A stretch of DNA of 34,058 nt from Rhodothermales bacterium. GTDB taxonomy: Bacteria > Bacteroidota > Rhodothermia > Rhodothermales > UBA10348. Under the pieces are notes generated by a model that searched no databases, was not told the DNA's origin, and saw only the letters and a program-made list of their open reading frames with translations. The stretch covers positions 1 to 34,058 of the forward strand of contig JANJTM010000031.1 in assembly GCA_024711125.1 (NCBI GenBank). The letters run 5' to 3'. A program made the translations under genes and the position numbers. Positions 5,392-24,294 of this stretch are shown here, piece by piece. Every line of letters starts with the position of its first letter. Within the stretch, counting starts at the first letter, position 1.

Positions 5392-5410
5392 CGGATCTCC
5401 GGTTGGCGGT

Positions 5411-6787
5411 TCATCGGACTTCATCCCACGGCTGGGCGCTCGACACGTCCGGCATGCCCCAGTCGGGACCGTACCAGCGATGGAAGCCCTGCATGCGGAA
5501 TGCCCAGAATCCGGTGGTCATGTCGCTGACCACGATCAGCCCGTCGGCGTTGCGCACGTCCACGCCCCACGCGCCGTCGTAGACGTTCCACGTATACGGG
5601 CTTCCGGGCATGCGGGCCGACTCGCTGCGGTTGTCGTGCACGCCGTCGAAGGTGTCGTAGTAGGCGACGGTGAACGGACGCGCGGGGTCGGTCATGTCGA
5701 ATACCGAGAGACCCGTCTGGTAGCCCGCCACGAAGACGAAGGGCCACCGCACCTCGTGGTTGTGCGCGACGCTTTTCCAGTCGGCGTGCCAGACGCCCAC
5801 GGCTTCGTCGATGTTGTCCACGACGCCGTCGAGCGCCGGCTTCAGGTCGAAGATGCGAAGCGGCGCATACTGGAATTCGGTCTCGGCGACGGCGTAGCGG
5901 CCGTCCGGGGTCGGGGTGAACGTGTGGCCCCAGGGCACCCCGGGCACGTCGAGGATCGTCGCGAGCAGTTCGGGGCGGGCGAGATCAGAGATGTTGTAGA
6001 CGTAGTATCCGCTTCCGCCCCCGCCGTAAAACCGGTCCTGGCCGGATTCCGGGTGGTAGGCCACGTAGAAATCGTGGTACCCGTTCGCCCACATGTTCTC
6101 GCTCTCGGCCACGGGCACCAGGCCGGACAGCGAACGATTCTCCGTCGCCAGCACGGCGTCCATCTCGGTGCCGCCGGACTTGAGGAAGAGGTCCATGTCG
6201 AACACCTTCGCGTACTGGCCGCTGGTCGCGAAGAGCAGCGGCTTTCCGTTCGAGTGCCGGTACATGAACATGTTGTGGAAGCCGCCGGGCGAATCGGGCT
6301 GCCGGATGCGTCCTACCTCGACGACCTTGCCGGGGAGATCGGTCATGTCGAAGACGATTGCGCCGACGTCCGAATTGGGGCCGCCCTGCGAGAACTGGAC
6401 CGACTGGACGTAGTACGTGCGCCCCTCGTGCTTGAAGTAGCGGCCGTCCATCGCTCCACCCACGTGCAGGTCGGGATTCTCGATGCGCCAGCGATGGATC
6501 ACCCGGGCGTGGTACGGGTCGCGTAGATCGATCACGTCGAAACCGATCTCGTGCACGCGACGGGCCACGTAGGCGTAGGGGCGTTCCGGATCCTGCTCGA
6601 TCTCGATATCCGACACCGACCCGGCCATGCCGAGCGGGACATGGGCGACCACCTCGATGTTGGCGCTTCCGCGCGCTCCCGGCTCGGGCGGATGCTGCGG
6701 GTGTTCGAGACCCTGGCCCGCCACGGGCACGGCACAGGGCAGCAGGGCGATGACGGCCGCGGTCGCGGCCCGGCGTATCGTATGCAT
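5411..6787 (-). CDS. Secreted LVIVD-type beta-propeller protein (paralog 1)
   Basis: 458 aa. Start is placed at 6787, which gives the signal peptide MHTIRRAATAAVIALLPCAVPVAGQ and lies 5 nt after the upstream stop; the frame is open to 6829 but that extension would precede the signal peptide. The mature N-terminus has a short His-containing segment (LEHPQHPPEPG). The propeller motifs shared with paralogs 2 and 3 are present: 'DLHVGGAMDG', 'GFHNMFMYRH', 'YHDFYVAYHPESGQDRFYGGGG', 'WGHTFTPTPDGRY', 'HNHEVRWPFVFVAGY', 'WGVDVRNADGLIVVSD'. It differs in having KHEG in place of KHFKWKG and two insertions, near 'FLKSGGTEMDAVLATENRS' and near 'SESARMPGSPYTWN'. Same inferred extracytoplasmic role as its paralogs. 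Confidence 0.87.
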   Translation of the reverse strand: MHTIRRAATAAVIALLPCAVPVAGQGLEHPQHPPEPGARGSANIEVVAHVPLGMAGSVSDIEIEQDPERPYAYVARRVHEIGFDVIDLRDPYHARVIHRWRIENPDLHVGGAMDGRYFKHEGRTYYVQSVQFSQGGPNSDVGAIVFDMTDLPGKVVEVGRIRQPDSPGGFHNMFMYRHSNGKPLLFATSGQYAKVFDMDLFLKSGGTEMDAVLATENRSLSGLVPVAESENMWANGYHDFYVAYHPESGQDRFYGGGGSGYYVYNISDLARPELLATILDVPGVPWGHTFTPTPDGRYAVAETEFQYAPLRIFDLKPALDGVVDNIDEAVGVWHADWKSVAHNHEVRWPFVFVAGYQTGLSVFDMTDPARPFTVAYYDTFDGVHDNRSESARMPGSPYTWNVYDGAWGVDVRNADGLIVVSDMTTGFWAFRMQGFHRWYGPDWGMPDVSSAQPWDEVR

Positions 6788-6792
6788 GGCAA

Positions 6793-7974
6793 TCACCAGC
6801 GGTCGGCTTCGGTCGGAAGGCGGCTCCATCGCTGGGCCGGCCCCAGGTCAGGCACTCCCCAGCCGCGGCCGTCCCAACCGCGAAAGTCCTCGATGCGGAG
6901 CAGCCAGAGTCCCGTGGCGGCGTCACTGACGGCGACGAGGCCGTCATGGTCCCGGACATCGACCGAGACCGCCCCTTCCGCCTCGTCCGTGCCCTCCCAG
7001 GTTCGCCAGAACGCGGTCGTGTAGGCCTCCTGGGGGTTGCGCACGTTCACCACGTGGAAGCCGGCCGGGCCGGAGGCGACGAACAGGTAGGGCCAGCGCA
7101 ACTGGAAGTCCCGGGCCACGCCCCGCCAGTCGGCGGTCCAGGCCCCGACGTCGGTCCGCACCGTCGAAACGCTGCCGTCGAGCGCGGGGCGCAGGTCGAA
7201 GATCCTCGTCGGAGCGGTCGCGTAGCCTGCGGTAGTCGCCAGCTGCAGGCCGTCCGGGGAGACCTGGGCCCTCGTGCCGACGTCGACGATGGCGGGCTGA
7301 ACGAAAGTCACCAGGCGTGCGCCGGTCCAGCCCGTTACGTCGAAAACCGAGTATCCACCGGTTCCGGACGTGTAGACCCGGTCGGTACCCGTCGCGAGGT
7401 CGAAGAGGGCGAAGACGCCTTCCATCGTTCGATGGCGACCGCGGGCACCTTCGGGGATGCCGATCTCGAAGAGCGCGAGAGACGGCGCCGCGGCGTCGAT
7501 CACGAACGCCCGGTCGCCCGCGGCGGCCAGCAGGATGCGTCGACCGTCTGACGCGTGGTACGCGAACAGGGCCTTGACGCCGGGGAGCACGGTCCGCGTT
7601 CCGCGGGACGGACGCCGCGGATCCGAGACGTCGATCCAGTCGATGCCCTCGTCGTGGCCCACGGCCAGAAGGTGCCGCCGGTCCCGGGTCTCGAGCAGGG
7701 CCAGGGCGCGTGGCGCGGGCTCCTGCCCGATGCGGCCGAGCACCCGGGGGTCTGCGGGAGCCTGCACGGAAACGACGGCCACTTCGGCATCGAGGGCCAC
7801 GTACGCGTACGGCCGATCGGGGTGCTGATCCAGGAACAGGGCACCGGCAGTGCCGCCCAGCGGCAGCCGGGCTTCGAGCACGACGTTTCGTGAGCCGAGC
7901 GTGGACTGCGCGGTTGCCTGGGGAGAGGCAACGACGAGCCACGCGGCCACGAGGCCGAGGAGGCTTCGGGGCAT
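6793..7974 (-). CDS. Divergent secreted propeller paralog lacking the conserved histidines
   Basis: 393 aa, the first gene of the operon. The ATG at 7974 gives signal peptide MPRSLLGLVAAWLVVASPQATAQ; a longer open frame to 8127 is rejected because it precedes the signal peptide and runs into the tRNA-remnant region. The blade framework of the three downstream paralogs is recognisable ('IDWIDVSDPRRP', 'SGTGGYSVFDVTGWTG', 'TRIFDLRPALDGS', 'AWTADWRG', 'LRWPYLFVASG', 'VDVRDHDGLVAVSDAATGLW', 'FRGWDGRGWGVPDL'). The His motifs are gone: HNHEVRWP has become RDFQLRWP, GHTFTP..DGR has become GTRAQVSPDGL, and the YHD..HP..GQDRFYGGG block has become GVFALFDLATGTDRVYTSG. It may be a structural or regulatory partner rather than a metal-binding copy. 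Confidence 0.83.
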   Translation of the reverse strand: MPRSLLGLVAAWLVVASPQATAQSTLGSRNVVLEARLPLGGTAGALFLDQHPDRPYAYVALDAEVAVVSVQAPADPRVLGRIGQEPAPRALALLETRDRRHLLAVGHDEGIDWIDVSDPRRPSRGTRTVLPGVKALFAYHASDGRRILLAAAGDRAFVIDAAAPSLALFEIGIPEGARGRHRTMEGVFALFDLATGTDRVYTSGTGGYSVFDVTGWTGARLVTFVQPAIVDVGTRAQVSPDGLQLATTAGYATAPTRIFDLRPALDGSVSTVRTDVGAWTADWRGVARDFQLRWPYLFVASGPAGFHVVNVRNPQEAYTTAFWRTWEGTDEAEGAVSVDVRDHDGLVAVSDAATGLWLLRIEDFRGWDGRGWGVPDLGPAQRWSRLPTEADRW

Positions 7975-8009
7975 CGTTGGTTCCGGGCAGGAAGGACTTC
8001 GGGGGTCCG

Positions 8010-8040
8010 AAACTGTACGACCCTTCCTCCGGAAATGCAA
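8010..8040 (-). promoter_or_regulatory. Possible promoter of the propeller/multicopper-oxidase operon
   Basis: Read on the minus strand, a TTG (plus 8038-8040) is followed after 20 nt by TACAGTTT (plus 8010-8017), about 36 nt before the ATG at 7974. Spacing resembles the Bacteroidota -33/-7 promoter layout (TTTG and TAnnTTTG), but the -7 match is imperfect. Confidence 0.3.
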
Positions 8041-8043
8041 AAG

Positions 8044-8118
8044 GTGGGCCCGCCGGGATTTACTTCGGCGCTGCGCGCCTTCGTCAGTCGCTCGCTGCGC
8101 TCGCTCGTGTGAACCCGG
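8044..8118 (-). repeat. tRNA 3'-end remnant split in the T-loop by a 49-nt insert
   Basis: The 18 nt at 8044-8061 are identical to 8164-8181, which is the 3' end of the intact tRNA. On the minus strand the remnant reads CCGGGTTC (plus 8111-8118), then 49 nt of G+C-rich sequence (plus 8062-8110), then AAATCCCGGCGGGCCCAC. Removing the 49 nt restores a perfect 5-bp T-stem (CCGGG/CCCGG) with loop TTCAAAT. The insert contains a small hairpin (GGCGC-TGC-GCGCC) and a GCGAGCG/CGCTCGC-rich half. No D-arm or anticodon arm is present. Next to the remnant, GAACCC-GGT-GGGTTC at 8111-8125 forms an inverted repeat. See findings. Confidence 0.75.
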
Positions 8119-8131
8119 TGGGTTCAACTCC

Positions 8132-8148
8132 CGGCGGCTAATCCGCCG
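8132..8148. repeat. Short perfect hairpin between tRNA and its remnant
   Basis: CGGCGG (8132-8137) and CCGCCG (8143-8148) form a 6-bp perfect stem around a 5-nt loop. It lies just downstream of the tRNA on the transcribed strand and might help end or process the tRNA transcript, but there is no T-run. Confidence 0.4.
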
Positions 8149-8164
8149 AGGCTACCAAGAACAG

Positions 8165-8237
8165 TGGGCCCGCCGGGATTTGAACCCAGGACCAATCGAT
8201 TATGAGTCGACTGCTCTAACCGCTGAGCTACGGGCCC
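8165..8237 (-). tRNA. tRNA with CAT anticodon (probably tRNA-Ile2, possibly tRNA-Met)
   Basis: 73 nt on the minus strand folds as a full cloverleaf. The acceptor stem is GGGCCCG/CGGGCCC. The D-arm is GCTC...GAGC. The anticodon stem is GTCGA/TCGAT with loop CTCATAA, giving anticodon CAT. The T-arm is CTGGG-TTCAAAT-CCCGG, and the discriminator base is A. The 3' CCA is not encoded (the DNA continues CTG), so it must be added by the CCA-adding enzyme. The anticodon arm and variable region ('ACTCATAATCG.TTGGTC') resemble bacterial tRNA-Ile2, whose C34 is modified to lysidine by TilS to read AUA, more than elongator or initiator Met tRNA. That choice is a judgement from memory of the family. Confidence 0.93.
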
Positions 8238-8240
8238 GTC

Positions 8241-8262
8241 GCCCGCGGCCGAAGCCGCGGGC
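8241..8262 (-). terminator. Hairpin with UUCG tetraloop after the surface-protein gene
   Basis: GCCCGCGGC (8241-8249) and GCCGCGGGC (8254-8262) form a perfect 9-bp stem. On the minus strand the loop is TTCG closed by C-G, the unusually stable C(UUCG)G tetraloop. It lies 44 nt after the stop of the gene ending at 8307 and ends 3 nt before the tRNA 5' end. No U-tract follows, so it may be a factor-assisted terminator, an RNA 3'-end stabiliser, or a leader structure for tRNA 5' processing. Confidence 0.5.
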
Positions 8263-8306
8263 CGGGCCGAAGATACCGGAAATGCCCGCGCGGGTTCAAA
8301 CCCGGG

Positions 8307-11300
8307 TCACTTCGTGAGGACCAGGCTGCGGGACAACACCCCGAGGGGCGTATGCAGCCGGTAGACGTAGATACCGGTCGTAAGCCCGGCGGCGTCGAAT
8401 ACGGCCGCGTGGCGACCGGACGGGATCGTCGCGTCCACGAGCCGAGCGACCGGACGGCCGAGTACGTCATACACGATCAGTCGCACGGAGACCGGTTCCG
8501 GTACGCTGAATTCGATCGCCGTGGTCGGATTGAACGGGTTCGGGTAGTTCTGGAAGAGTTCGTACCCGCCCGGCAGGTCGGTGTCACCGGGCTCCTCGAG
8601 CCCCGTCGTGACGGCTGCGACGCACTCCGAGAATTCGGATGTGTTGCCCTCCCGGTCCCGAAGGATCGCCGAAACGGGCGTCCCGATGTCCAACGCGGCC
8701 GCCAGCAGGATTTCGAACGAGCCGTCGGCCAGCGTGATGAACGAATCGACGAACGTTTCACCCTCGCCGTATCCCGAAGGATCGCACTCGGCATTCGAGT
8801 ACAGTTCCACGGCACACGAGGCGCACGTCGTGGTGCCGACCACGCGTCCGTTCTCGGCCGTCACGAGCGAAAGGACCGGCGTGTTGAGCAGGTCGTTTGC
8901 CCCGGTGTCCCCGTCCGCCACGTCGTTGACGGTGACGCCGCTCACGGGGTCCGACGGCGCGGCGAGATTGATCCCAAGCCCGCCGTTGTCGGCATAGGTG
9001 TTGCCCGACAACACGTTGATTCGACCCGACTCGACGCGGATTCCGTCCCCTCCGTTCCCGGTCACGCGACTGTTCCGCACTTCGTTGTCCGAGCCGGCGA
9101 TCACGATACCATGTCGCTCGAATCCCTGCACGGTGAGCGAGTGGACCGTGGCCCCGTCGGTCTCCAGAACGAGGCCCGACGCATCGCCGGCCAGCGAGCC
9201 GTCCAGGGTCGCCTGGCTACCCACGATCTCGACGGACGCCCGCACGACGGGCAGCGCCGACGTCGGCCGGAAAACGGCCGCCCCCGATTTGCCGGCCGCC
9301 CCGAGGTCGATGACATACACGCCGCCTCCGGCAGCGGCCTCCTCCAGCGCCGCCCTCAATGTGCACGCGCCCATGGCATCGGCGCAGACCCCATCCCCGG
9401 GAGCCGCGTCCGGCGTGTCGGCCGTGGACCCGACGGGCACGGGGGCGGTCACGAGCACGACGAAGTCCTCCACCTCCCCTCCGACCGCGGGTCCCGTCGC
9501 TTCGAGACTCGAGCCGGTATGGAACCGGAAGCGCGCATACGTGAACCCGGACGCCGCGGTACCCGGCACGGTCAGGAAGAGCGTGTCGGACGGGGATTCC
9601 ACCTGCGCAGACCGGAATACCGTCTCGCCGTCGTCGGACCAGTCTCCGTCCCGATTCCAATCCACCCACCCTTCGATTCGCCCCCGTACACTGGGTCGAA
9701 AGACCATGCGTCCCATGCGGTTACGCGCAAGGACCGGGATCCGGACCGGATCCGGAGGACCCGGGTCGAACCGGATCGATGCAGAACCGAACGGGTCGAT
9801 GAACCCGACACCGTCCTCGTCGTCCGGCATCGCGTTCGGGAACGCGTCGTCGCCCAGCGCCAGGAACTGGGGTCGTCCTTCCGCTTCGATGTCCAGGTAG
9901 TCTCCGAGCATTACACTCGGGACCGGGAGGTGGCGCGCACCGTTCGCGGCGGACGTCACCGGGTATCCCCACGGGAACTGTACGTGCGACGGATCGACCA
10001 CCTGGAGCGCGTCTCCGAAATCGAGCGCACCCGGGGCATTGCCGAACAGGTAGATCGATCCGCTCGGAATGCCCGGCAACAGCGTGACAGTGTAGGATCC
10101 GGATGGCGGAACGGTGGGCGTGAACCCATCCGGCGCGACTTCGCGCAGGGTATACGTACCGGGTCCGAGGCCGGTGAAGACCGCATACCCCGGTTCGCCC
10201 GGAGCCCTGTCGGACGACACCGCCTCGGTTTGCCCGCCCGTGGGCCCGGTGAGGCGGAAGGTGACGCCGTTGAGTCCGGGGTCGAACGAATCCATGTCGC
10301 CGTCTCCGTCGAAGTCCACGAACTTGAAGGCCGTGATCGTTCCGTCGTTCGTGGGCTGCACGGGGGTCTGGGGATCGAACAGTCCTCCCGACTCCGCACG
10401 GTAGGATCCGGTTGAAGTCCCGTTGATCGTATACCCCGGGGGCGGCGTGATCGTGTACCGGACGGTCGTGCCCGGCGCGACGATCGTCGGCGGGAACGCC
10501 CCTCCGGCATCGGTGAACACGTCGAAGAACGAGGTGGTCGACGGATCCTCGTACAGTTGCAGGCGCGCGTCGGGCACGCCCGTGTCGCCGGTTCCGAAAG
10601 AGCCGTCCCCGTTCGTATCGACGAACACGCGGCCGGCCGTGGTGGAGTTCGTGCTCAACCAGAAGGCCTGGTTCTGGAGCCGCGTACCGCTGGGAAGGGA
10701 AAACGTCTCGGTACGGATCGTGTATCCGGGCATCGGCGTGGTCCCCACGTACTCGCCCGGCTTGAGGCCTTCGAGGTTGAGCGTTCCGCCCGAGAACTTG
10801 ACGAGCGGCGGCGTGAAGTCGGCCGGCGGACAGTGGGTGCAGCCGGGGGCCGGGACGAGCGTGACGTCGAAGGGGAACGGCGTCGCGCAGAACGCACCGC
10901 CCGGTCCGGCGGGACAGGGTTCGCAGCCGGTTCCGTCGGGCGTGGACCACTGTCCGGGCGGACACTGCGGCCCGGGCGGCCACGTGTCGTAGCGGCTCAT
11001 CCAGGGCTGGCCGGTGAGCGAGGAGTACCGGGTGTTCAGGAAGGTGTACGGGGCCGGATCGGGGCCGGGCACCGAGAGATCGAACGTCGTCTGTCCGCCG
11101 GGCGGATAGGTGGCGTAGCCCTCCGCACCCGACCACTGCTCCAGCAGGGCAACGGTGCCGGCCGCATGCGGGGATACCATTGCCGTGCCGAAACCGTCCG
11201 GGCCGGTCGAAAAGCGGGTGTCGGTCTGGCTGCAGCCCTGCAGTGGGTCGATCGCGATGCAGAAGTCGATCCCGGGCATCGGCGGGTCGCCCGGGTTGGC

Positions 11301-12866
11301 GACACCGTCTCCCCATAGGTCCTCCCGCTTTTCCACGGTGAAACTCCAGGGATATCCCACGGGGTACTGCAGCACGTGGGTAACGCCCGACTCGACCATG
11401 AACGTGGTCGAGTACGGATCGGACCACGATCCGGGCGGAGGATCGATGGTGACGGTAACCGTCGTTCCCGGCAGGGCGCCGGTCTGCTCCCAGACTCCGA
11501 ATTCATTCGTTTGCACGGTCGAGGAAGACCCTCCCCACCAGTTCACCTCGACGGGCACGTCGGCGAGCGGAGGCTCCCCCGGATCCCATGCCGAGTTGCG
11601 GTTCAGATCCTGCCAGACGTTGGTCTGCACGGACCCATGGCGGTACCAGCTGTTGACGAGACTCTGGTTGTCGCCGCTGTAGAACGACCCCGTGGACGGG
11701 TCGAGGAGGCCGACCTGCGGGTCGTCGGGCTCGAAGAGGTAGGTTCCCCAGTAGATGTCGCCGGCCGTCCAGGAGCCCCCGTTGAGCGGCACCGAAAACG
11801 GCGTGAAGCTCGACGGAGCGGGGTAGGCGCCGTCGAGCACCGGGTTGACCAGGACCTGGTCGGGCGGATTGGCGCAGGGTGATCCGGCGGGGCACGGTTC
11901 GCACACGGTGCCCGCCGTGTTGGCCTGCTGTCCGAACGGACACGAAACCCCGGCAGAACCCCAACGCGCGTACTTCCAGTACCCTGAAACCTGTACGAGG
12001 AGAAAATTGGCGAACTGGTACGTCGCGTAAGGGGTCGAAGGATTGGACAGGTCGACGGAGTGGGTTCCGCCCGGCGGGTACGTGAGGACCGAGCCGGGCG
12101 ACGTCCGGTTCTCGCCCAAGGGGTAGGTACCCGAGGTCGGGAGGTTCGGAATGGAGAAGCTTCCGTCCGACGCCGACGTGCCCGACTGCTCCGAGGGGCC
12201 GAGCAGGCCGTCCGAATCCTGGTCTACGAAGAGCACGGCCCCGGGATAGGGCGTGTCTTCCGGATCCCGAACGCCGTTTCCGTTGAAATCCTGCCACTTG
12301 GAGCCCATCACGGTCACGGTCGCCGGGGGCATCCACGTGATGCTTCCCACCGTCTGCCTCGTGCCGGTGTTGATGTTGGCGGTCCCGAGCATCGAGGTGC
12401 TCGAGCTGACGCCCGACAGTTGGACGCAGACGGTCAGCGTGCTGCCCGGACCTCCGCCCTGTGCGTAGCACCCCTTGGACCCGGCGGGGCCGCTGGTGTC
12501 GTTGTAGCAGTACCCGTTCGCCATGGTCAGCGACTGTCCGGCCGCACCGGTGCCCGAGATACCGGCGATCGTGGCCATGTGCGGCCAGACGACGAGATCC
12601 TGGAAGGCCGGAGCGGGCTGATTGACGTTCAGGACCAGGAAACACAGGTTGGGAGGGTTCCACGTGGTCGACAGGACGTACCCGCCGGCACCGACGAGCC
12701 AACCGGCCGGAAGCCGCGTGCTGTCGACGACCGCCGCAGGCCCCGGGTCGGGGGTGGCGGATCCGGTCGGGGCCGGCCCAGGCACACCACCCCCCGTTAC
12801 GATGAGAACGACGAGCGCCCACGTCGAGCGCTGCAACCCTGCATGAGCCATCCCTCGGGATCTCAT
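8307..12866 (-). CDS. Large modular T9SS surface protein (SdrD/Cna-B-like, GEVED-like, beta-helix, sorting domain)
   Basis: 1519 aa from ATG 12866, which has GGAG 6 nt upstream; the frame is open to 12893. A hydrophobic leader (STWALVVLIVTGGGV) serves as signal peptide. Five SdrD/Cna-B-like modules start with Asp/Asn-rich turns: 'DFNGNGVRDPED' near residue 200, 'DLNRNSAWDPGE' near 420, 'GDGVANPGD' near 520, 'DTNGDGSFGTGD' near 750, 'DFDGDGDMDSFDPG' near 850. Two Cys-rich inserts ('GTVCEPCPAG', 'GTGCEPCPAG') lie near 305-335 and 630-660. A GEVED-type segment ('WVDWNRDGDWSDDG', 'GGEVEDFVV') spans about 990-1130. A 'CTLRAALEEA' segment and parallel beta-helix turns ('HGIVIAGSDNEVRNSRVTGNGGDGI') follow. 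The C-terminus is a T9SS type A sorting domain with 'FQNYPNPFNPTT' (about 1435-1519). It is probably exported and surface-attached or released; adhesive or structural role inferred. Confidence 0.92.
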   Translation of the reverse strand: MRSRGMAHAGLQRSTWALVVLIVTGGGVPGPAPTGSATPDPGPAAVVDSTRLPAGWLVGAGGYVLSTTWNPPNLCFLVLNVNQPAPAFQDLVVWPHMATIAGISGTGAAGQSLTMANGYCYNDTSGPAGSKGCYAQGGGPGSTLTVCVQLSGVSSSTSMLGTANINTGTRQTVGSITWMPPATVTVMGSKWQDFNGNGVRDPEDTPYPGAVLFVDQDSDGLLGPSEQSGTSASDGSFSIPNLPTSGTYPLGENRTSPGSVLTYPPGGTHSVDLSNPSTPYATYQFANFLLVQVSGYWKYARWGSAGVSCPFGQQANTAGTVCEPCPAGSPCANPPDQVLVNPVLDGAYPAPSSFTPFSVPLNGGSWTAGDIYWGTYLFEPDDPQVGLLDPSTGSFYSGDNQSLVNSWYRHGSVQTNVWQDLNRNSAWDPGEPPLADVPVEVNWWGGSSSTVQTNEFGVWEQTGALPGTTVTVTIDPPPGSWSDPYSTTFMVESGVTHVLQYPVGYPWSFTVEKREDLWGDGVANPGDPPMPGIDFCIAIDPLQGCSQTDTRFSTGPDGFGTAMVSPHAAGTVALLEQWSGAEGYATYPPGGQTTFDLSVPGPDPAPYTFLNTRYSSLTGQPWMSRYDTWPPGPQCPPGQWSTPDGTGCEPCPAGPGGAFCATPFPFDVTLVPAPGCTHCPPADFTPPLVKFSGGTLNLEGLKPGEYVGTTPMPGYTIRTETFSLPSGTRLQNQAFWLSTNSTTAGRVFVDTNGDGSFGTGDTGVPDARLQLYEDPSTTSFFDVFTDAGGAFPPTIVAPGTTVRYTITPPPGYTINGTSTGSYRAESGGLFDPQTPVQPTNDGTITAFKFVDFDGDGDMDSFDPGLNGVTFRLTGPTGGQTEAVSSDRAPGEPGYAVFTGLGPGTYTLREVAPDGFTPTVPPSGSYTVTLLPGIPSGSIYLFGNAPGALDFGDALQVVDPSHVQFPWGYPVTSAANGARHLPVPSVMLGDYLDIEAEGRPQFLALGDDAFPNAMPDDEDGVGFIDPFGSASIRFDPGPPDPVRIPVLARNRMGRMVFRPSVRGRIEGWVDWNRDGDWSDDGETVFRSAQVESPSDTLFLTVPGTAASGFTYARFRFHTGSSLEATGPAVGGEVEDFVVLVTAPVPVGSTADTPDAAPGDGVCADAMGACTLRAALEEAAAGGGVYVIDLGAAGKSGAAVFRPTSALPVVRASVEIVGSQATLDGSLAGDASGLVLETDGATVHSLTVQGFERHGIVIAGSDNEVRNSRVTGNGGDGIRVESGRINVLSGNTYADNGGLGINLAAPSDPVSGVTVNDVADGDTGANDLLNTPVLSLVTAENGRVVGTTTCASCAVELYSNAECDPSGYGEGETFVDSFITLADGSFEILLAAALDIGTPVSAILRDREGNTSEFSECVAAVTTGLEEPGDTDLPGGYELFQNYPNPFNPTTAIEFSVPEPVSVRLIVYDVLGRPVARLVDATIPSGRHAAVFDAAGLTTGIYVYRLHTPLGVLSRSLVLTK

Positions 12867-12910
12867 GGCGGTCTCCGGTTGGTTTCGCCGCAACCAGCTC
12901 CGACGAGACC

Positions 12911-13036: not shown

Positions 13037-15511
13037 CTACTTCGGGGATGGCCGCAGGTCCGAGTCTGCCGGAGGCACGTCGGGTACCCGGACCGTGGTC
13101 CCGTTCGCGACGTCCCTCTCGCTCACGTGGACCACGATGCGATAGGGCTCCCCGCCGGAGGAAACGTGGAGCACGACCGGTTCCACGGGGTGCAGGTCGG
13201 TCCACGACGAGTCGGCACGGCTCGGGTACGGGATTCGGAGCCTGTATCCTCCAGAGGCATCGGCGGCCGTCCGGCGGTCCCACGTGACGGTGCGACCGGT
13301 CGATCCCGACCTCATCGATACGCGGGCTTCGACCAGGGCACCCGGTGAGGCTGTTCCGACGAGCAGGGCACCGCGGACTACCCGGAAAACCTTCACCGCC
13401 GGCGACACGAAATGATCGAACAGTACCCGGCTGCCCTGTGCGACGATCGGATCGCGGACCGGGACTTCCGTCCACGCGACCGGCGACTCGGCCGGCATGG
13501 GCCGCGAAGCGAACTCGAGGGTCCGGAGAGACCGATCGAACGCCAGGGCAGAGTACCACGCGGCGGCGCTCTCGCGCACGAGGCGATAGTGCTCGAGCCC
13601 GCTTCCGTCCTCGAAATACAGTCGGTAGGCCATGCTGCCGACGAGCGTGGAGTCGAACCGGTACAGCGTTCCGAACGGGGTGCCGGTTTCGAAGGCAACG
13701 GTGCGGGGTGGACGCCCTGTCAGTCCGAGCTTGGTGATCAGGCCCGGACCGGAGCGATCCGCATCGACGGCAGCGTAGACCGTCCCCTCGTTCCGACCGC
13801 ATCCGGGGCAGAGCAGTCGCAGCGACGCAGACTCGTTTCGTTCGCCAAGCCAGAGCGCGTCGGCCGGAGTCGGGTAGCGACTGGCCACCGGCAGGCGTTC
13901 CGCGACCAGGGACACCGCATTGCCCGCGTCCCACGGTGACATCACTCCGTAGGTACCCGGCGCGTAGCCGAGCGAATCGCGGACGGGAGGATCGGCGAAG
14001 GGTGAGACGGTCGGAACGGGGCTGTGGTCGCGCAGCCACGTCATGGCGTCATACCAGGCGGCGTCGAGTGCCGTACCGTCACGCACGTCGACCGGACCCG
14101 GCCACGGCGGACGCACCCCGCTGCCCGGGAGGAAAGCGGGCGATACCACGGCGGCGGTCACGGCCAGCGCCAGGACGGTGCGTTTCACGCGATCGAGGGC
14201 GAAGAACCGGGACACCGGCGACTCCACGGCGCGGATGAACCGTGCAAGTCCCGGTCCGGCCAGCGCGAATACCAGCAGCGGGCCTGCATATTCGAAGTCA
14301 TGGGCCGACAGCCAGGTCCCGGTGAGCGCGCCTGCAAACAGGGCGACGAACGTCACGGAGACCCTTTCGGGGCTGCGGGCGCAGGCCAGGAAGCCGAGCA
14401 CGGCGAGCGGGTACACCGGACCGTAGAGCACCCACAGATCCCGCAATCCGGCCGCCTGCTGCTCGGCAACGTCGGCTCCCCGGGCGGCGGTGGCCCAGGA
14501 CCAGTACGAGGCGCCCTGCTCCGTTCCGAATACGAGCCACGCGGATGCGGCGACGCACGAAACGCCGGCAAGGGCCGCAAGGAGCGTCCTTCGGGGTCCA
14601 CGCGGGGGCAGCCGCCGGAAAGCGTGGACGGTGCCGACAAGCAGCACGGGTGCGGCGAACGTCGCGGCGAGTACGTGGCCGGCCACCCCAGGCAGGAATT
14701 CGACCGCGAGCTCGGGCCAGAAGGTCCGGACCAGCACCTGCCAGGCCCCGAAAGCGAGAAAAATCGTCGCGAGGCCCTTCGCCCATGCCCGTGCGTGGTC
14801 CTGGTCGGCCAGCGCCACGACGAATGCGCCTGCGGCGGCGGCGCCGAACAGCGCGACGTACAGCGGGGCTCCGAGCCAGGTGTAGAGCAGCACCGCGAGC
14901 GGAAGCCCGTACCCCAGGCCCCGTCGAGCCAGCACGAGGGCCGGAGCCGTCTGCGCACGGCGGGCAGCGGCCACTGCCGCCACGGCCGCCCACACGAGCA
15001 GCGTGAACTCGGCCACGTGCTGGTCCGCATACCCGAGGAGGGACCGCGTCCCTACCGCGCCCGGATACGCCAAGGCCAGCAGACCGGCCAGAAGGGCGGC
15101 ACGGTGGCCGGCCAGCAGGGCCGTCAGCAGCATCATGCCGGCGAGCGAGACCGTGCTGATCGCGACCGGCGACCACGCCGCGACCGTTTCCACGAAGGCC
15201 GGATCCGGCCTTCCGCCCGACCCTGCGATCGCGGCGGCGGCGATGGCCACGTTATACAATCCGGCGGCATCGGCGAACTCCACCGACGGATAGTGCGATG
15301 CCGGATCCCTGCGAAGGACGTGCGGAAAGTTGTCGGCGGAGATCCGGGCATGCCGGGCATGAAAAAGCGGATCCACGCCGAGGAGGACCGGGCGGTCCGG
15401 GCGCGAGAACACCACGTCGGCGGTCGGGAGCGTACGGCTCACGGCCCAGGCGACCAGGACCAGGCATGCCAGCCAGGGACCGGCGCGGTACGATCTCTTC
15501 GTGTCACCCAT
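13037..15511 (-). CDS. STT3/AglB-like oligosaccharyltransferase candidate, membrane protein
   Basis: 824 aa. About a dozen hydrophobic segments fill residues 10-470, followed by a soluble domain, the STT3/AglB/PglB layout. Three catalytic-region motifs are recognisable. 'LLGVDPLFHARH' (D47, H51) matches the first acidic loop motif. 'GYADQHVAEF' (D163, H165, E168) matches the D-H-H-x-x-E region. 'MSPWDAGNAV' near 525 lies where WWDYG normally is and is followed by an 'AERLPVASRY' stretch typical after it. The C-terminal ~100 residues ('VGTASPGALVEARV') look like a small beta domain. Predicted role: transfer of a lipid-linked glycan to exported protein. The WWDYG change could alter acceptor specificity, so a different GT-C enzyme is possible. 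The start at 15511 overlaps the upstream stop by 8 nt (ATGGGTGA). Confidence 0.75.
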   Translation of the reverse strand: MGDTKRSYRAGPWLACLVLVAWAVSRTLPTADVVFSRPDRPVLLGVDPLFHARHARISADNFPHVLRRDPASHYPSVEFADAAGLYNVAIAAAAIAGSGGRPDPAFVETVAAWSPVAISTVSLAGMMLLTALLAGHRAALLAGLLALAYPGAVGTRSLLGYADQHVAEFTLLVWAAVAAVAAARRAQTAPALVLARRGLGYGLPLAVLLYTWLGAPLYVALFGAAAAGAFVVALADQDHARAWAKGLATIFLAFGAWQVLVRTFWPELAVEFLPGVAGHVLAATFAAPVLLVGTVHAFRRLPPRGPRRTLLAALAGVSCVAASAWLVFGTEQGASYWSWATAARGADVAEQQAAGLRDLWVLYGPVYPLAVLGFLACARSPERVSVTFVALFAGALTGTWLSAHDFEYAGPLLVFALAGPGLARFIRAVESPVSRFFALDRVKRTVLALAVTAAVVSPAFLPGSGVRPPWPGPVDVRDGTALDAAWYDAMTWLRDHSPVPTVSPFADPPVRDSLGYAPGTYGVMSPWDAGNAVSLVAERLPVASRYPTPADALWLGERNESASLRLLCPGCGRNEGTVYAAVDADRSGPGLITKLGLTGRPPRTVAFETGTPFGTLYRFDSTLVGSMAYRLYFEDGSGLEHYRLVRESAAAWYSALAFDRSLRTLEFASRPMPAESPVAWTEVPVRDPIVAQGSRVLFDHFVSPAVKVFRVVRGALLVGTASPGALVEARVSMRSGSTGRTVTWDRRTAADASGGYRLRIPYPSRADSSWTDLHPVEPVVLHVSSGGEPYRIVVHVSERDVANGTTVRVPDVPPADSDLRPSPK

Positions 15512-16361
15512 CGCATCGCACGACGACGAACGTTCCCCCGACGAGGGCAATCACGGCCCAGGCTTCCCACACCCGAAGGCGGTGGTACCGCCGCCCCGAT
15601 TCCTCGCTCCACGCGACGTACGGCACCGGATGCTGGGGCCGATTCCATCGCTGGAGCGGGTACCGACCCGTGTCGGCGTAATTGCCGATCCATCCGAATG
15701 AATACGACGTCGCCACGACCGCGAGAAGAACGGCGCCTGCCGAGGCGGCGGGGAACCGGTACCAGGCCCGTGCCTCCCCGGGTCGTCGCGAAGCCGCGCT
15801 CCACGCCGAGGCGGCCAGGATGCACCCCAGGAGATTGAGGACGACGTCGTTCCAATCCAGGTACGGTTGCCAGTCCCGGTGAAGCCAGGAGTACTGGTAC
15901 GCCTCGTCGACCATTCCGACCAGAAATGCGACCAGGGCGGCCTCGGGTGTGCGTCCCACCACCGGAACCAGCAACCAGGTGAGCAGCCCGTACTGGACGA
16001 AATGCACGAACTCGATGGACTTGATCATCAGCAGACCGTGGCTCAGCAGCGCGAGGGCGCAACCGGCCGCCGCCCATGCCCAGGCGCGCGGCCTCGGGGG
16101 CACGGTCCACACCCGGCGCAGCCAGAACAGGGTGAACACCGAAGCCGAGAGCAGCGCGGCCACGATGCTCATCCGGTTCCACGCCGCGGTTCCGACCCGG
16201 GACTCGACCCGAAGCGCCGGCTCCTGCGCGAGGTCGTGTCCGGAGATCACGAGCCAGGCGTACAGGCCCGCGACCGCCGCCAGGAGAAGCCGGAGCGGAA
16301 CGGCGGTCGGCGCAGGCGCGGGGATGAAGCCCCCGGTGCCGTGGGGATTCGAGCGGGCCAT
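15504..16361 (-). CDS. VanZ-like membrane protein
   Basis: 285 aa from ATG 16361 (a GTG at 16406 could extend it). Six to seven hydrophobic segments are visible. The core 'EFVHFVQYGLLTWLL' (117-131), 'GMVDEAYQY' (149-157) and 'WNDVVLNLLG' (170-179) is the VanZ-like signature: His in the second helix, Glu of D-E-x-Y-Q, and a D-x-x-x-N motif. VanZ relatives are small membrane proteins linked to glycopeptide resistance in some species but mostly of unknown biochemical role. The C-terminal region holds a soluble-looking loop ('WNRPQHPVPYVAWSEESGRRY') and a last helix. It overlaps the STT3-like gene, so the two are probably translated together. This may be a lipid- or cell-wall-glycan partner of that enzyme; inference only. 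Confidence 0.83.
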   Translation of the reverse strand: MARSNPHGTGGFIPAPAPTAVPLRLLLAAVAGLYAWLVISGHDLAQEPALRVESRVGTAAWNRMSIVAALLSASVFTLFWLRRVWTVPPRPRAWAWAAAGCALALLSHGLLMIKSIEFVHFVQYGLLTWLLVPVVGRTPEAALVAFLVGMVDEAYQYSWLHRDWQPYLDWNDVVLNLLGCILAASAWSAASRRPGEARAWYRFPAASAGAVLLAVVATSYSFGWIGNYADTGRYPLQRWNRPQHPVPYVAWSEESGRRYHRLRVWEAWAVIALVGGTFVVVRCDG

Positions 16362-16492
16362 GCGGGAATATCGGTGCTGGAGACCGGAGGGCAAACCGCC
16401 GGCCACATGGCCCGAGGGGACGCGCTCGGCAGAGGTATTGTGAATAGTATCGACCGATGGGGATATCCGTCCTTTCTTTGTTAGGAATGTGG

Positions 16493-19308: not shown

Positions 19309-22300
19309 TCAGCGGACCAGCAGCATGCCGCGGGTCTGCGTCCGATCCGCCTGCGACAGCCGGAAGAAGTAGACACCGCTCGACAGGTCCCCGGCGTCCC
19401 ACTGCACCGCATGCCGTCCGGCTCCCATGATTCCGTTCACCAGGGTCACCACGAGGCGTCCGACCGCATCGTAGACGACCAGTTGCGTGGGCGCGGTCTC
19501 GGGAAGCCGGAAGGCTACCGTGGTGGTTGGATTGAAGGGATTCGGGTAGTTCTGCTCCAACGCGAACCGGTATGGACCGTCCTCCGATTCGACCCCAGTT
19601 CCAACAACCGATACCGCCACCGATGCCGGTAGGGTGCCCTCCACGTTGCCCACGGCGTCGCGGGACAGGGCGTAGAATCGATATGAGTGCCCCGGTGTCA
19701 CGCTGACGACCAACGAATCACCGTAGCTTGTGCCCACGGGCTCGAAGGCGCCTCCGTCGGCTGACGCGAACACGGTGGTCGAGGAGACTCCGGACTCCCC
19801 GGGTCCGTCCAACGCCGTCCACCGCAGCGTCAGAGGGCCGGAGGACACGGTTGCGGGCGGGGCATCCATCACGGTAGTGGGCGGTCCGAAGTCCAGGGTG
19901 TTCAGTACCGTGTTCGTCATTATGGGCCGGTTCAGGTCGAAAACGATCACGGCACGGTTGGCCAGGACCGTGCCCGACGGCAGGCCCGGAACCGCGTCGA
20001 CCGAGAACTGGACATAGCCTTCGCCCTCGGGTGGAACCACGTTCGGCGGGAGTTCGATACCCTCGATCACCCACTGCAGCCGGTTGCCGTTGACCGTGAA
20101 GGTCCATCCCTGGTGGGACGAACCCTCGAATTCGACCGTGGACGGGTCGAAGACCGTCGAGAGCGTGTCATCGATAACGATGCGCCACGCAGGCGCCGTG
20201 GCCTCCTTCTTGTTCTCGAAGAGGATCTGGTAGGTCATGCGACCCACCGACGGAACGAAACCGAGGGCCCCCTGTCCGGCAGGCCCCACTTTCTCGTTCG
20301 GGTCCCATGACGTGACCTTCTGCAGGCCCTGGGCAACCTCGAGGTCCTCGAGTGTCAGCGGAATACCCTGGCAATCGACAATCGACTGCCCCCGAGCGAC
20401 GGCTTGCTTGCCGAAGGCACGTTCGATGGTGCTCCAGTTGTTGCTGACCTCGCTCTCCGGGACACCCAGCCTGCGCGCAATCTCCTTCTTCACCTCGTCT
20501 GCGAACTTGGGCGCCGGTCTCTCCAGATACCCGAGAGAAATCTGTTCGTTCGTCCGGTACTGCGCCCGCCAGAACACCTCCCACATGTAGGAGGAGAACT
20601 CCTCGCAGTTTCGGATCCTCGTTGCGTCTCTCCACCACAGATCCGAAAGTGCGTTTCCAACCGTGATAGCGCTCCGGATCTTCCACAGCGTGACGGCCCA
20701 ACCCCACGCTGCGACCAGCGTGACCCCTGCAGCGGCCTCCGCATCCGAAATCTCGTGGGCCTTCCCGGACGGATCCGGGACCGCGGTCAACACGATGTCG
20801 AACGAGCGCTCCTCGTAGGGAGCCATGCCCATGATGAAGATGTGCGCCACGCCCGGATCGGTGGCGAAGCGGTACTCCGAGGCCGGTATGGGTTCGATCG
20901 TGTGGCCGGGAAACGCGGACGGAATGACTGAATGCAAAGACACACCGCCGTCGGTCTCGATCATGATCTCGAAATCCCCAACCGGGATTGCGCTGTTGTT
21001 GACGTAGTGGATCGTGTACCGGTTCGGCGGTCCCACGCGGATCTGCGAGCGTCCGATGAGAGAGACGATCACGGTCGGCAGTACCGAAACCGGGTCGGGA
21101 CTCGAGGAAAGCACGTAGTCCCCGGTCGGGGGCGCTCCGTTCAGCCGGATCCAGTTGGCCTGCGTATCCCGGGTGACGATCGCGGACGTGGAGACCTGCC
21201 TCCACGATGCCCCTCCGTCTTCCGAGTGATACACCTCGAGCAGCGATTCGGAATTGGCTCCGAGCTGCGTTTCGTCGTACTGGAACTGGATCCAGGGGAC
21301 GTTCTCGCTCGTGGCCGGGTCGTGCCGGAACCGCCACCAACTGCGCGCTGCATTGGCGAACGTGCCCGGAACCTGGTCGCCGTAATGCTCGACCCGCAGC
21401 GCCGCCGGGGTGGTCGTGCCGAGGTCGAGCGATGTTCGGAACCCGGTCAGCGTTTGGGACGGTGACTGCCACGAAGTAACGACGAGGCCGTGGCTCTCGA
21501 CGGTGCCCGGAACTACACCGGACCCGAGTTCGAGGCGCCCCCCGGCACCGAGGACGAGACGGCCACCCGTATGGTGAAGGTTGGAGAGCAGGTTCTCCCC
21601 GACGAGGACGACCTCCTCGCCAGTCGATTCGATGCGTGAGGCAACGGCCGGGGCCCAGATGTTGCGAAGGCCGGAACCGGCGAGGCGCAGCGGATCGGTC
21701 GACCATGTGCCGTCCGAGAACACGTTCCCGGTGACGGCGACGACCAATGGCCAACCACCCGCCCCGGAGCGGACGGTGCCATGATTCGTGACGCTTCCTT
21801 CGACGTCAAGTTGGCGATAGTAGGCGCTCGCGTGCAGTTCGGCACCCGTAGGGATGGTCAGCGATCCCGTGACCCGGACACCCTCCTGTACGCCGACCGA
21901 GCCCGCGAACGTGATCGACCCGAGGAAGTGGATGTTCCGGAACGTGAACTCGTTGCCGTCCACGCCCTGCACCGTGCCGCTTCCGAGGATCGTGCCGTTC
22001 TCGACGTAGGCGCTTCCCGGGACACTCAGCGTATGGCTGCCCATGTCGAGCGTGCCGCCGAGAAGGTTACACAGCACGGAGAAGGTCAGGTCCGTCGTGG
22101 CCGTCGCCCGGACCGCGCCGTTCTCCAGGTAAAAGCGCGTGCTCCACGAACGCCCTGCCCCGAGTGCTATCTCATGCGGCCCCGCCCCGGTCAGGACCGT
22201 ATCCCAGGCATTCCAGTTGCCGAGATTCGTCACGTGTCCACTGACGTTGAGCGTGAGGTACCAACCGCCCGCCGGGTCGTTGCGGATCGTACCGTTGTTG

Positions 22301-24102
22301 ACGAGATCTCCGGTGACGATCACGGTCCGGTAGTAGGCCTGGGCCTCCAGCGTCCCATCGACGGTCAGCGTACCCTCGAAAACCACTCCGCTGCGAACGG
22401 GGAGCGTTCCGACGATCGTGGGACTGCCGGAAACCGTGATGGATTCCAGCCCGAACACCGCACCGGTTCCCTGGAGGATTCCCTGCGACGTCGCCCGTCC
22501 GTTGAGGAACCGCCCGTCACCGAGCAGTGATATCGTGTAGGCTCCGAGGTCGATCGTGGATCCCGCGAGGTCGAAGGGCCGGGCAAAGTCCAGGTCCGAT
22601 CCCGCGACGGGAGCGACGGTACTGCTTCCCGACAGGAAACTGCTCTCGAATACGGCCCCGGTGGTCTGGGTGATCGTCTGCGGCGCGGTGCCGTTGAGGA
22701 GGGTTCCGCCGGCGAATGTCCACGTTCCGGCGTTGTGAAGGTCACCCGCAATGGCCACGCCGAGAAACCACCCCCCGTTCGGGTCGTCGCGCAGCGTGCC
22801 GTTGTTGAAGAGGTCGCCCGTAATCGTGATGGACTGGTAGTATCCCGCGGGATGCAGAGTGCCGTTGACCGTCAAGTCTCCGTCTATGACGACGCCGCTT
22901 CCGATCGTGACCAGGCCGCCGAACGTCGGCCGACGCAGGACGGTAACCGCTTGCAGCGTGGTCCCGCGGTCGCCTTCATGACGTATTTCGCCGACGGTAT
23001 CGATCGTGCCGGAATGGATCCGTGCCGACGGTCCCACCAGGACCAGGGGCGCGCCACCCATCTCCAGAAGCCCCCCGTTGAGGTTGAAATCCTGGTTGGT
23101 GCGGATCCACGATGCACCGCTGATCCGCTCGGCGGGACCGGCAAGAACGAACCGGCTTTCAAAGATCGAGGTCGAGCCCAGCCGGATGCTCTGCAATGAG
23201 CCGCCGCCGTCGAGGGTGGTGGTCTGATGTTGCCACAGCCCGTGGTTGTTGATATCGCCCGACACGGAGATGTTGAGGTGCCATCCCCCGTTGGGATCGT
23301 TCCGGACCACGCCGTCATTGGAAAACGTACCGTTGACATCCAGGTCGCGGTAGTAGCCGGAGGCCTGGAGTATTCCGGTACCGAGCACGGCCAGGCTCCC
23401 GTCCACCACCACGCCCGATCCGAGCCCGATGGTACCGTCAAGCTGCGGAGCACCGGCGATCCGGACGTTCTCGAGGGCAAGAAGGTTGTTCTCGATGCCT
23501 TCCAGCTTGTTCAGGACCTGGAGGGATCCATTCCGGATGACGGCCCCCCCGGCGATCTGCACGGTGGCGAAGCCCGTGTCGAACATCCCGCCTCCCAGGT
23601 CCACGGAACGGGCGAACGTTTGATCGTCATATGCGTCAATGATCACGGCGGCGGATTCGAGGGCAAACGCCGACTCCCAGCGTCGCCCGACCTGCTGCAC
23701 CAGCGTGTGGCGCCCGGCACCGGTCACCGTGGTAGTCTCGCATTGCCAGGTGCCCCAGTTCTCCAGGTTGCCCCCGACCCTCAGGTTCAGATGCCATCCC
23801 CCGTTGGGATCGTTCCGGATCGTTCCGTGATTCACGACCTTCCCGGTCACGACGAGGGTACGATAGTACCCGGACGCAGCAAGGGTCCCGCCGGAATTCA
23901 CGTCGATCGATCCTACGGTGACGCCGTCCACGTTGAGCGCCACGGGCCCGTTGATCACGACGCCGGACCCGGCCGTGGGCACGGTCCCGCCGATCCAGGT
24001 CGTGGGTTCGCTCCAGGCTCCTCCCGCGTTCGTGGACGCTTGGCGGGCAGCGGCCGGGAGAACCACTAACACCAGCACAAAGGCAAACGATGATGCGCGC
24101 AT
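19309..24102 (-). CDS. Giant T9SS-exported protein with five ~170-residue repeats
   Basis: 1597 aa from ATG 24102, with GGAG 5 nt upstream and signal peptide MRASSFAFVLVLVVLPAAARQ. Residues 25 to about 870 hold five repeats starting at 'GYYR.L.V.G..VNHGTIRNDPNGGW' near 77, 250, 420, 590 and 760. They look like beta-solenoid turns ('GSGVVIDGSLAV', 'WESAFALE'). A CARDB/DUF11-like part follows ('NRYTIHYVNNSAIPVGDFEI'), then a helical stretch of about 130 residues (roughly 1130-1260), then 'SWDPNEKVGP' near 1267 and 'GYVQFSVDAVPGLPSGTVLANRAVIVFD', which is common in T9SS cargo. A fibronectin-III-like module precedes the C-terminal sorting domain ('LEQNYPNPFNPTTTV', last ~85 residues). It is expected at the cell surface or outside; the role is unknown, plausibly adhesion or envelope structure. 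Confidence 0.92.
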   Translation of the reverse strand: MRASSFAFVLVLVVLPAAARQASTNAGGAWSEPTTWIGGTVPTAGSGVVINGPVALNVDGVTVGSIDVNSGGTLAASGYYRTLVVTGKVVNHGTIRNDPNGGWHLNLRVGGNLENWGTWQCETTTVTGAGRHTLVQQVGRRWESAFALESAAVIIDAYDDQTFARSVDLGGGMFDTGFATVQIAGGAVIRNGSLQVLNKLEGIENNLLALENVRIAGAPQLDGTIGLGSGVVVDGSLAVLGTGILQASGYYRDLDVNGTFSNDGVVRNDPNGGWHLNISVSGDINNHGLWQHQTTTLDGGGSLQSIRLGSTSIFESRFVLAGPAERISGASWIRTNQDFNLNGGLLEMGGAPLVLVGPSARIHSGTIDTVGEIRHEGDRGTTLQAVTVLRRPTFGGLVTIGSGVVIDGDLTVNGTLHPAGYYQSITITGDLFNNGTLRDDPNGGWFLGVAIAGDLHNAGTWTFAGGTLLNGTAPQTITQTTGAVFESSFLSGSSTVAPVAGSDLDFARPFDLAGSTIDLGAYTISLLGDGRFLNGRATSQGILQGTGAVFGLESITVSGSPTIVGTLPVRSGVVFEGTLTVDGTLEAQAYYRTVIVTGDLVNNGTIRNDPAGGWYLTLNVSGHVTNLGNWNAWDTVLTGAGPHEIALGAGRSWSTRFYLENGAVRATATTDLTFSVLCNLLGGTLDMGSHTLSVPGSAYVENGTILGSGTVQGVDGNEFTFRNIHFLGSITFAGSVGVQEGVRVTGSLTIPTGAELHASAYYRQLDVEGSVTNHGTVRSGAGGWPLVVAVTGNVFSDGTWSTDPLRLAGSGLRNIWAPAVASRIESTGEEVVLVGENLLSNLHHTGGRLVLGAGGRLELGSGVVPGTVESHGLVVTSWQSPSQTLTGFRTSLDLGTTTPAALRVEHYGDQVPGTFANAARSWWRFRHDPATSENVPWIQFQYDETQLGANSESLLEVYHSEDGGASWRQVSTSAIVTRDTQANWIRLNGAPPTGDYVLSSSPDPVSVLPTVIVSLIGRSQIRVGPPNRYTIHYVNNSAIPVGDFEIMIETDGGVSLHSVIPSAFPGHTIEPIPASEYRFATDPGVAHIFIMGMAPYEERSFDIVLTAVPDPSGKAHEISDAEAAAGVTLVAAWGWAVTLWKIRSAITVGNALSDLWWRDATRIRNCEEFSSYMWEVFWRAQYRTNEQISLGYLERPAPKFADEVKKEIARRLGVPESEVSNNWSTIERAFGKQAVARGQSIVDCQGIPLTLEDLEVAQGLQKVTSWDPNEKVGPAGQGALGFVPSVGRMTYQILFENKKEATAPAWRIVIDDTLSTVFDPSTVEFEGSSHQGWTFTVNGNRLQWVIEGIELPPNVVPPEGEGYVQFSVDAVPGLPSGTVLANRAVIVFDLNRPIMTNTVLNTLDFGPPTTVMDAPPATVSSGPLTLRWTALDGPGESGVSSTTVFASADGGAFEPVGTSYGDSLVVSVTPGHSYRFYALSRDAVGNVEGTLPASVAVSVVGTGVESEDGPYRFALEQNYPNPFNPTTTVAFRLPETAPTQLVVYDAVGRLVVTLVNGIMGAGRHAVQWDAGDLSSGVYFFRLSQADRTQTRGMLLVR
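23279..23819. repeat. 28-nt exact DNA repeat within protein repeats 1 and 2
   Basis: The 28 nt at 23279-23306 and 23792-23819 are identical and encode the 'RNDPNGGWHLN' stretch of two adjacent protein repeats 513 nt apart. Other repeats show the same residues with diverged codons. This indicates a recent duplication or conversion between the first two units. Confidence 0.8.
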
Positions 24103-24170
24103 GGTGGCTCCAGTCTGTGAAAAGACAAAGTGGAGCGTATGCGATTCGCCGCATCCGCGGTAACGGAGTA

Positions 24171-24202: not shown

Positions 24203-24234
24203 GAGAACGCGCCGCCGCGCATGCCTGGAAACGG

Positions 24235-24269: not shown

Positions 24270-24294
24270 ACGAAGGGGTAACCACGAGGCAGGC

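Follow-up and report, generated by a model that had tools for sequence, protein, structure and literature searches.

The oligosaccharyltransferase AglB of Archaeoglobus fulgidus (AfAglB) binds its metal through D47, D161 and H163, and E360 works via water; H81 and R426 are located close to the phosphate, and the Ser/Thr pocket is made by WWDYG and the DK motif (PMC8342417). In PglB of Campylobacter, R375 and Y196 are reported to touch both phosphates, and the corresponding Ala mutants are inactive (PMC6215017). Work on yeast Stt3 terms the donor-phosphate Arg and WWD conserved, describing their conservation as extending from bacteria to eukaryotes and their role in N-glycosylation as central (PMC7226087). 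An STT3-like fold is also present in the tryptophan C-mannosyltransferase DPY19, whose acceptor is not Asn and whose donor is a monophosphate (PMC10154233). In published phylogenies, the few bacterial homologues that are included fall within euryarchaeal AglB, with two or more transfers from archaea (PMC4973528). The present analysis concerns a predicted AglB/STT3-type GT-C glycan transferase from a Rhodothermales bacterium (assembly GCA_024711125.1), encoded in a stretch of 34,058 nucleotides of contig JANJTM010000031.1, hereafter the window. The gene spans positions 13037–15511 on the minus strand, as do all window features given with coordinates below, and encodes 824 residues from ATG to stop; the longest mechanically derived open reading frame (ORF) starts further upstream at a TTG codon at 15550.

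Family assignment and predicted fold

Two AglB domains were detected in the window enzyme. The peripheral domain AglB_L1 (PF18079) covers residues 714–807 (13091–13372) with 40.8 bits (E 2.4e-10; cut-off 23.6), and the AglB_core-like model PF22627 matches with 29.2 bits (E 1.2e-6; cut-off 27). AfAglB is the best solved relative in a phmmer search (E 4.8e-18), in which its WWDYGH is aligned onto PWDAGN. A profile built from four relatives gives one unbroken alignment, from profile position 17–834 to AfAglB 12–866, with an E-value of 4e-46, and a DGSGLxHYR block is common to both proteins. At the level of sequence, homology to AglB over the full length is secure.

The predicted structure points in the same direction. 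An AlphaFold2 model calculated from 13 sequences (pLDDT 78.3, pTM 0.81) displays a GT-C fold followed by a C-terminal globular domain of the oligosaccharyltransferase type. In Foldseek, AfAglB ranks first (E 1.7e-26, TM 0.74/0.71), followed by eukaryotic STT3, with PglB at E 3.4e-9 and ArnT at E 1.2e-4. VIA-align aligns 682 residues of AfAglB with a Z-score of 31.2 and a root-mean-square deviation of 4.4; eukaryotic STT3 reaches Z-scores of 25–30, DPY19 24.6 and PMT 16–18. By Z-score alone ArnT (24.0, 456 residues aligned) ties with PglB (24.1, 534 residues aligned), both lying below AglB. The initial annotation had proposed an STT3/AglB lineage, to be questioned if the closest homologues were of the ArnT/PMT type. 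The domains, the profile alignment and the predicted fold bear this lineage out: neither PMT nor ArnT families occur among the profile matches up to E 10, and the Foldseek E-value of ArnT stands against 1.7e-26 for AglB, so that an ArnT/PMT membership was rejected.

AfAglB-long (3waj, 5gmy, 7e9s) accordingly is the nearest described system, sharing the full-length alignment, the GT-C membrane part with the globular domain, AglB_L1 and the equivalents of D47, D161/H163 and E360. Identity to the window enzyme amounts to 17–19% in structural alignments. PglB shares the fold and the catalytic Asp/Glu equivalents, but is more distant than AglB; the window enzyme possesses AglB_L1 and lacks the equivalents of R375 and of the first Trp.

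Active-site residues and proposed function

Four full-length sequences, namely the window enzyme and its relatives from a Bacteroidetes metagenome-assembled genome (MAG; L024), from Myxococcota PL23a (L027) and from Planctobacterium marinum K7 (L034), hereafter the clade, were compared with 57 canonical rows. The first canonical set comprises 37 rows, 33 archaeal and 4 bacterial; the 30 archaeal rows L102–L131 are the best-scoring ones and therefore canonical-biased, several being near-identical. The second set, in a separate alignment, consists of 20 lower-scoring archaeal AglBs.

Both DXD-type metal motifs are present in the window enzyme, as judged from aligned residues. The first, LLGVDPLFHARHA (residues 43–55; 15347–15385), is assigned to external loop 1 (EL1) and contains DPLFHARH at residues 47–54. 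Its D47 aligns with D47 of AfAglB and is Asp in 57/57 canonical and 4/4 clade rows. The last residue of this stretch, H54, is His in every clade member and in none of the 57 canonical rows. The second motif, RSLLGYADQHVAE (residues 156–168; 15008–15046), assigned to EL2, contains GYADQHVAE at residues 160–168, in which profile and row alignments match D163 and H165 to D161 and H163 of AfAglB. At the D163 column Asp is found in 51/57 canonical rows (Asn in 6), at the H165 column His in 44/57 (24/37 in the first set, 20/20 in the second), and both residues are kept in all four clade members. Likewise E350 (14462–14464), situated in the context DVAE, aligns in profile and row alignments with E360 of the AfAglB TIXE motif, the catalytic Glu of TIXE/SVSE on EL5; Glu occupies this column in all 61 rows (57/57 and 4/4), and the Thr of TIXE is not retained in the window. 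The retention of the metal-site residues had been claimed by the initial annotation, which gave the motifs, coordinates and residue numbers D47, D163 and H165 correctly and left out the strand.

The residues contacting the substrates in known enzymes are changed. At the site of the canonical xRFxY motif the window enzyme carries H404-D405-F406-E407-Y408 (14288–14302), with D405 at the position of AfAglB R426 and PglB R375, a correspondence also obtained from the profile alignment to 3waj. This column holds Arg in 55/57 canonical rows, Gln in 2 and never Asp, in contrast to Asp in 4/4 clade members. The equivalent of WWDYGH is P526-W527-D528-A529-G530-N531 (13919–13936), as found by phmmer, profile and row alignments. 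Here the first position is Trp in 56 canonical rows and Leu in one, and Ala, Ala, Ala and Pro in the clade (Pro being P526 of the window), with the second Trp, W527, and G530 invariant in canonical (57/57 each) and clade rows (4/4 each) and the D/E of WWD likewise retained in the clade. In the DK-motif region (13730–13744), G590 is aligned with K618 of AfAglB; this column is Lys in 53/57 canonical rows (others Thr in 2, Ile in 1, Gly in 1) and Leu (2), Gly (1) or Phe (1) in the clade. Four residues further on, K594 is Lys in 4/4 clade members and 0/57 canonical rows, and may stand in for the lost Lys of the DK motif. Relative to AfAglB, R426, W550, Y553, H555 and K618 are replaced by D405, P526, A529, N531 and G590, respectively, with a Lys at 594.

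Not every deviation is specific to the clade. N531 was rejected as a clade-specific change: Asn is present in all four clade members, and also in 9/57 canonical rows, of which one belongs to the 37 of the first set and eight to the 20 lower-scoring archaeal AglBs. WDAGN as a one-off was rejected as well, the first Trp being lost in all four clade members. The acceptor motif is altered, as proposed when WDAGN was initially noticed in place of WWDYG; its reading as an isolated peculiarity did not stand, and the larger change, from the donor-phosphate Arg to Asp together with the lost DK Lys, had been overlooked. Judged by these alignments, WDAGN is one symptom of a wider change of the active site. 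Because WWD, the donor-phosphate Arg and the Lys of the DK motif were all looked for and none was found, the window enzyme cannot be counted with certainty among the canonical N-oligosaccharyltransferases.

These features are best accommodated by an active, metal-dependent, AglB-derived glycan transferase of the long, P1-domain type, which would face the periplasm, would have rebuilt its subsites for the donor phosphate and for the acceptor residue at +2, and would follow an acceptor rule other than NxS/T. We assign this reading a probability of about one half. The enzyme would move a glycan linked to polyprenyl mono- or diphosphate onto an extracytoplasmic protein, without reading the donor phosphate and the +2 Ser/Thr in the classical manner. 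An active transferase of shifted specificity is preferred because the catalytic and the replacement residues are both invariant in four distant lineages, and ordinary NxS/T glycosylation is not to be assumed because both subsites appear rebuilt. It is a matter of speculation whether the Asp at the phosphate site signals another donor or a second metal; in combination with the new H54 it would perhaps bind a second metal or, alternatively, a donor of the monophosphate type. DPY19 (Z 24.6 to the window model) shows that an STT3-like fold can serve another acceptor, but is metal-independent, whereas the clade retains its metal ligands.

An ordinary N-oligosaccharyltransferase, transferring a lipid-linked glycan to the Asn of NxS/T and tolerating the motif changes as drift, would agree with the retained second Trp, the D/E of WWD, D47, D163, H165 and E350, with the DGSGLxHYR block common with AfAglB and with the Gln found at the Arg column in two archaeal AglB rows. 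However, the exchanges of Arg to Asp and of Trp to Ala or Pro and the loss of the DK Lys are common to four deeply diverged sequences and are therefore fixed rather than drifting, and the R375A variant of PglB is inactive. Sequon counts argue weakly in the same direction: in comparison with shuffled sequences, no enrichment of NxS/T above +1.6 standard deviations (SD) was found in the neighbours, the counts covering 17 proteins. Such a conventional function is considered unlikely.

Several observations weigh against an active transferase of shifted specificity. Since R375A inactivates PglB, Asp at this position could equally well reflect lost transfer, and the Arg is not absolutely fixed among canonical enzymes, the Gln-bearing rows L136 and L137 being near-identical archaeal AglBs. 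The change of Tyr to Ala (A529 of WDAGN) occurs in the window row only. Only four full-length sequences make up the clade, and the window row forms the longest branch of the tree described below (1.54, flagged). The model draws on 13 sequences, and the geometry of the active site is putative. Neither is the family call clean: TIGR04154 matches with E 5e-55 and 187.2 bits, below its curated cut-off of 450, and a Pfam profile search gave no match of the window enzyme to PF02516 (STT3). Scores of 271–298 bits place the clade mates likewise under the TIGR04154 cut-off, as does, narrowly, the 440 bits of a WWD-variant row from Eisenbacteria (L032). PF02516 is passed by L027 and L034, and L024 is not among the listed matches; the standard STT3 model thus overlooked the window enzyme entirely.

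A more far-reaching interpretation, in which the clade constitutes a separate AglB-derived class that has spread between phyla, with a charge-reversed phosphate site and a replaced NxS/T reader, a new linkage or sequon on surface proteins and a VanZ-like partner in some lineages, appears doubtful. A natural clade with a retained metal site, an inverted charge at the phosphate position and no first acceptor-reading Trp would permit a direct test of how the individual active-site elements determine donor and sequon, and might provide a glycosyltransferase of new specificity for glycoengineering.

Distribution and phylogeny of the clade

Matches were found in 4 of 60 related genomes: besides that of the window itself, these are G006 with three pieces, G007 with a partial match and G052 with a weak match over 89 residues. 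At the class level 3/244 genomes match, all from the window's own family, and a search of the phylum with TIGR04154 yielded 16/394 genomes, the window genome with E 7.8e-40 and the others weakly, with 7.7e-7 at best. In the order of P. marinum, 2/295 genomes match, one weakly. Single-protein pattern scans gave no confirmed relative in genome contigs or viral contigs and none in plasmids. A scan of genome contigs confirmed 12 of 68 candidate stretches. Five of the twelve are window-like, i.e. L024, L027, L034 and the N-terminal pieces L025 and L026, from which the R/D and WWD columns are absent; the others are canonical-like and belong to Methanothrix/Methanocrinis, Planctomycetota (L029, N-terminal part only), Dehalococcoidia and Eisenbacteria. 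Synechococcus elongatus is among five control genomes matching the archaeal STT3 model TIGR04154; two of the five, perhaps including this one, lie above the cut-off.

In a maximum-likelihood tree of 32 rows, drawn with a midpoint root, the window enzyme, L024, L034 and L027 split off from the rest with a support of 100/100. The canonical group is supported with 100/99 and a myxococcal family with 100/100, whereas the order within the clade is weak (88/76, 90/72); 11 of the 32 rows were flagged for unusual composition. The alignment of myxococcal relatives left out L002 (the same as L024), L025, L026, L029, L048 and L077, and the tree in addition L067, L071, L074, L075, L076, L080, L082 and L083. 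The phylogeny suggested by the initial annotation joins the window enzyme with proteins of Bacteroidetes, Myxococcota and P. marinum, apart from the canonical group. A bacterial enzyme, as supposed there, is confirmed; among bacteria, its closest relatives found here come from Bacteroidota, Myxococcota and a single gammaproteobacterium, a scattered distribution. A literature search over titles and abstract openings returned, among the matches listed, no earlier description of the clade or of bacterial AglB relatives lacking WWD.

A non-catalytic or decaying paralogue, perhaps with a role as binding or scaffold protein, would explain why an Arg essential in PglB is missing and why the window row forms a long branch, and in the Bacteroidetes MAG an intact copy is accompanied by two enzyme halves, one N-terminal and one C-terminal, with insertion-sequence-like ORFs nearby (by eye). 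Yet none of the metal and acidic residues varies between the four distant lineages, D405, K594 and H54 are likewise constant within the clade, and intact ORFs are present in the window, L024, L027 and L034, which leaves decay as quite an improbable explanation. The two halves in the Bacteroidetes MAG (L005/L025, L006/L024) lie on different contigs, each with insertion-sequence-like ORFs close by, and represent two remnants or one; the C-half reads TAWEYGN.

The clade profile has matches in 49 of 235 Myxococcota genomes, and several of these contribute at least three separate ORFs (L052, L053 in G541; L055–L083). The 30 aligned myxococcal rows resemble the clade in that DHH is retained (30/30), both ends of the clade profile are matched, many rows also matching the C-terminal AglB_L1 region, and WWD is lost (0/29 rows with the region present, e.g. 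APSGIGH, AHPNLGH, TAWGDGH). In contrast to the clade, the Arg of QxR[FY] is kept in 28/30 (one Val, one gap), and the family forms its own 100/100 branch. These relatives suggest that WWD-less enzymes are not rare in bacteria.

Gene neighbourhood and glycan context

Along the minus strand the window enzyme is preceded by a VanZ-like gene and followed by genes for a giant protein of the type IX secretion system (T9SS), three choice-of-anchor-B-like proteins and a multicopper oxidase. The VanZ-like membrane protein (15504–16406; 29.6 bits, just below the cut-off of 30.1) overlaps the start of the enzyme gene by 8 bases and might serve the same reaction, in donor handling or complex formation. 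Directly downstream, the giant surface protein (8307–12893), with SdrD_B, GEVED and beta-helix regions, is a candidate acceptor; TIGR04183 matches it with 27 bits (cut-off 23) and Pfam Por_Secre_tail with 20.6 bits, under the cut-off of 27. The three choice-of-anchor-B-like proteins (4063–5424, 5411–6829 and 6793–8127) all score under their family cut-off, and the multicopper oxidase (485–2644) belongs to the same conserved operon. A second protein, encoded at 19309–24285, matches TIGR04183 with 36.1 bits, in agreement with the T9SS cargo initially noted near the enzyme.

In G006 the pair of VanZ and enzyme occurs at two places. The first shows the order CBM9, VanZ, enzyme and giant, with an enzyme C-half on the same contig, and the second two choice-B-like proteins, a 192-residue protein, the multicopper oxidase, VanZ and an enzyme N-half. 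The giants of the window and G006 are 37% identical over 780 residues, the VanZ proteins 33%. VanZ homologues were found in 2 of the 60 related genomes (the window genome and G006), always adjoining the enzyme; in G007, which is 78% complete and holds an enzyme fragment, none was found. G001 has the genes for choice-B, a 188-residue protein resembling the 192-residue one (by eye), multicopper oxidase and giant in a row, with neither VanZ nor enzyme among them and without an enzyme match anywhere else in its genome. VanZ and the enzyme thus resemble an optional cassette within the surface-protein operon, because G001 carries the operon without them and G006 has the pair at both places. A dedicated enzyme–giant pair is weakened by the same arrangement in G001 and by the giant matching 21/60 related genomes versus 4/60 for the enzyme, one of these weakly over 89 residues; the giant matches mostly cover part of the query, those of the window, G001, G006 and G031 approaching its full length. 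The glycosylation of exported proteins supposed by the initial annotation is plausible, but is not backed by NxS/T enrichment nearby or by the operon of G001, which lacks the enzyme.

Elsewhere the clade genes lie among genes of glycan metabolism. In P. marinum these encode GDP-mannose 4,6-dehydratase, epimerases, GT2, GT15 and an ABC-2 exporter as well as the associated ATPase. In the Myxococcota MAG, two GT4 genes and an epimerase gene adjoin the clade gene, and a Polysacc_synt (Wzx-type) gene is located on its opposite side at a distance of about 9 kb. No VanZ-like gene was present among the examined neighbours of either. Since both genes lie in a glycan gene context, the analysis supports some lipid-linked glycan as probable donor. 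The polysaccharide-type surroundings of these two copies would also suit a glycan ligase with a non-protein acceptor, which would transfer a lipid-linked polysaccharide to another glycan or a lipid during surface polysaccharide assembly. The protein-sequon pocket is among the changed parts, and AftA, AftB and EmbB, GT-C enzymes acting on saccharide acceptors, share the fold at lower Z-scores in VIA-align. However, AglB_L1 is retained in 4/4 clade members, as is the Glu of TIXE, and the Bacteroidota copies reside in a surface-protein operon rather than a polysaccharide cluster. A ligase function is rated as improbable, and transfer to protein with shifted specificity is preferred.

The conserved surface operon (window 485–12893, L025, L095) combines choice-of-anchor-B-like proteins, a protein of 188–192 residues, the multicopper oxidase and the giant T9SS protein; the gene for the 188–192-residue protein was not identified in the window copy. 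The one notable value of the tripeptide counts concerns the multicopper oxidases, which show an excess over shuffled sequences of D[ST][AILVMT], a pattern known as the Bacteroidetes O-glycosylation motif, with 6 occurrences versus 1.5 expected in the window (+3.7 SD) and 5 versus 2.1 in the L025 oxidase (3290–5059; +2.0 SD). The protein encoded at 19309–24285 is a second giant T9SS protein with DUF7619, next to two S8 peptidases that carry I9 propeptides.

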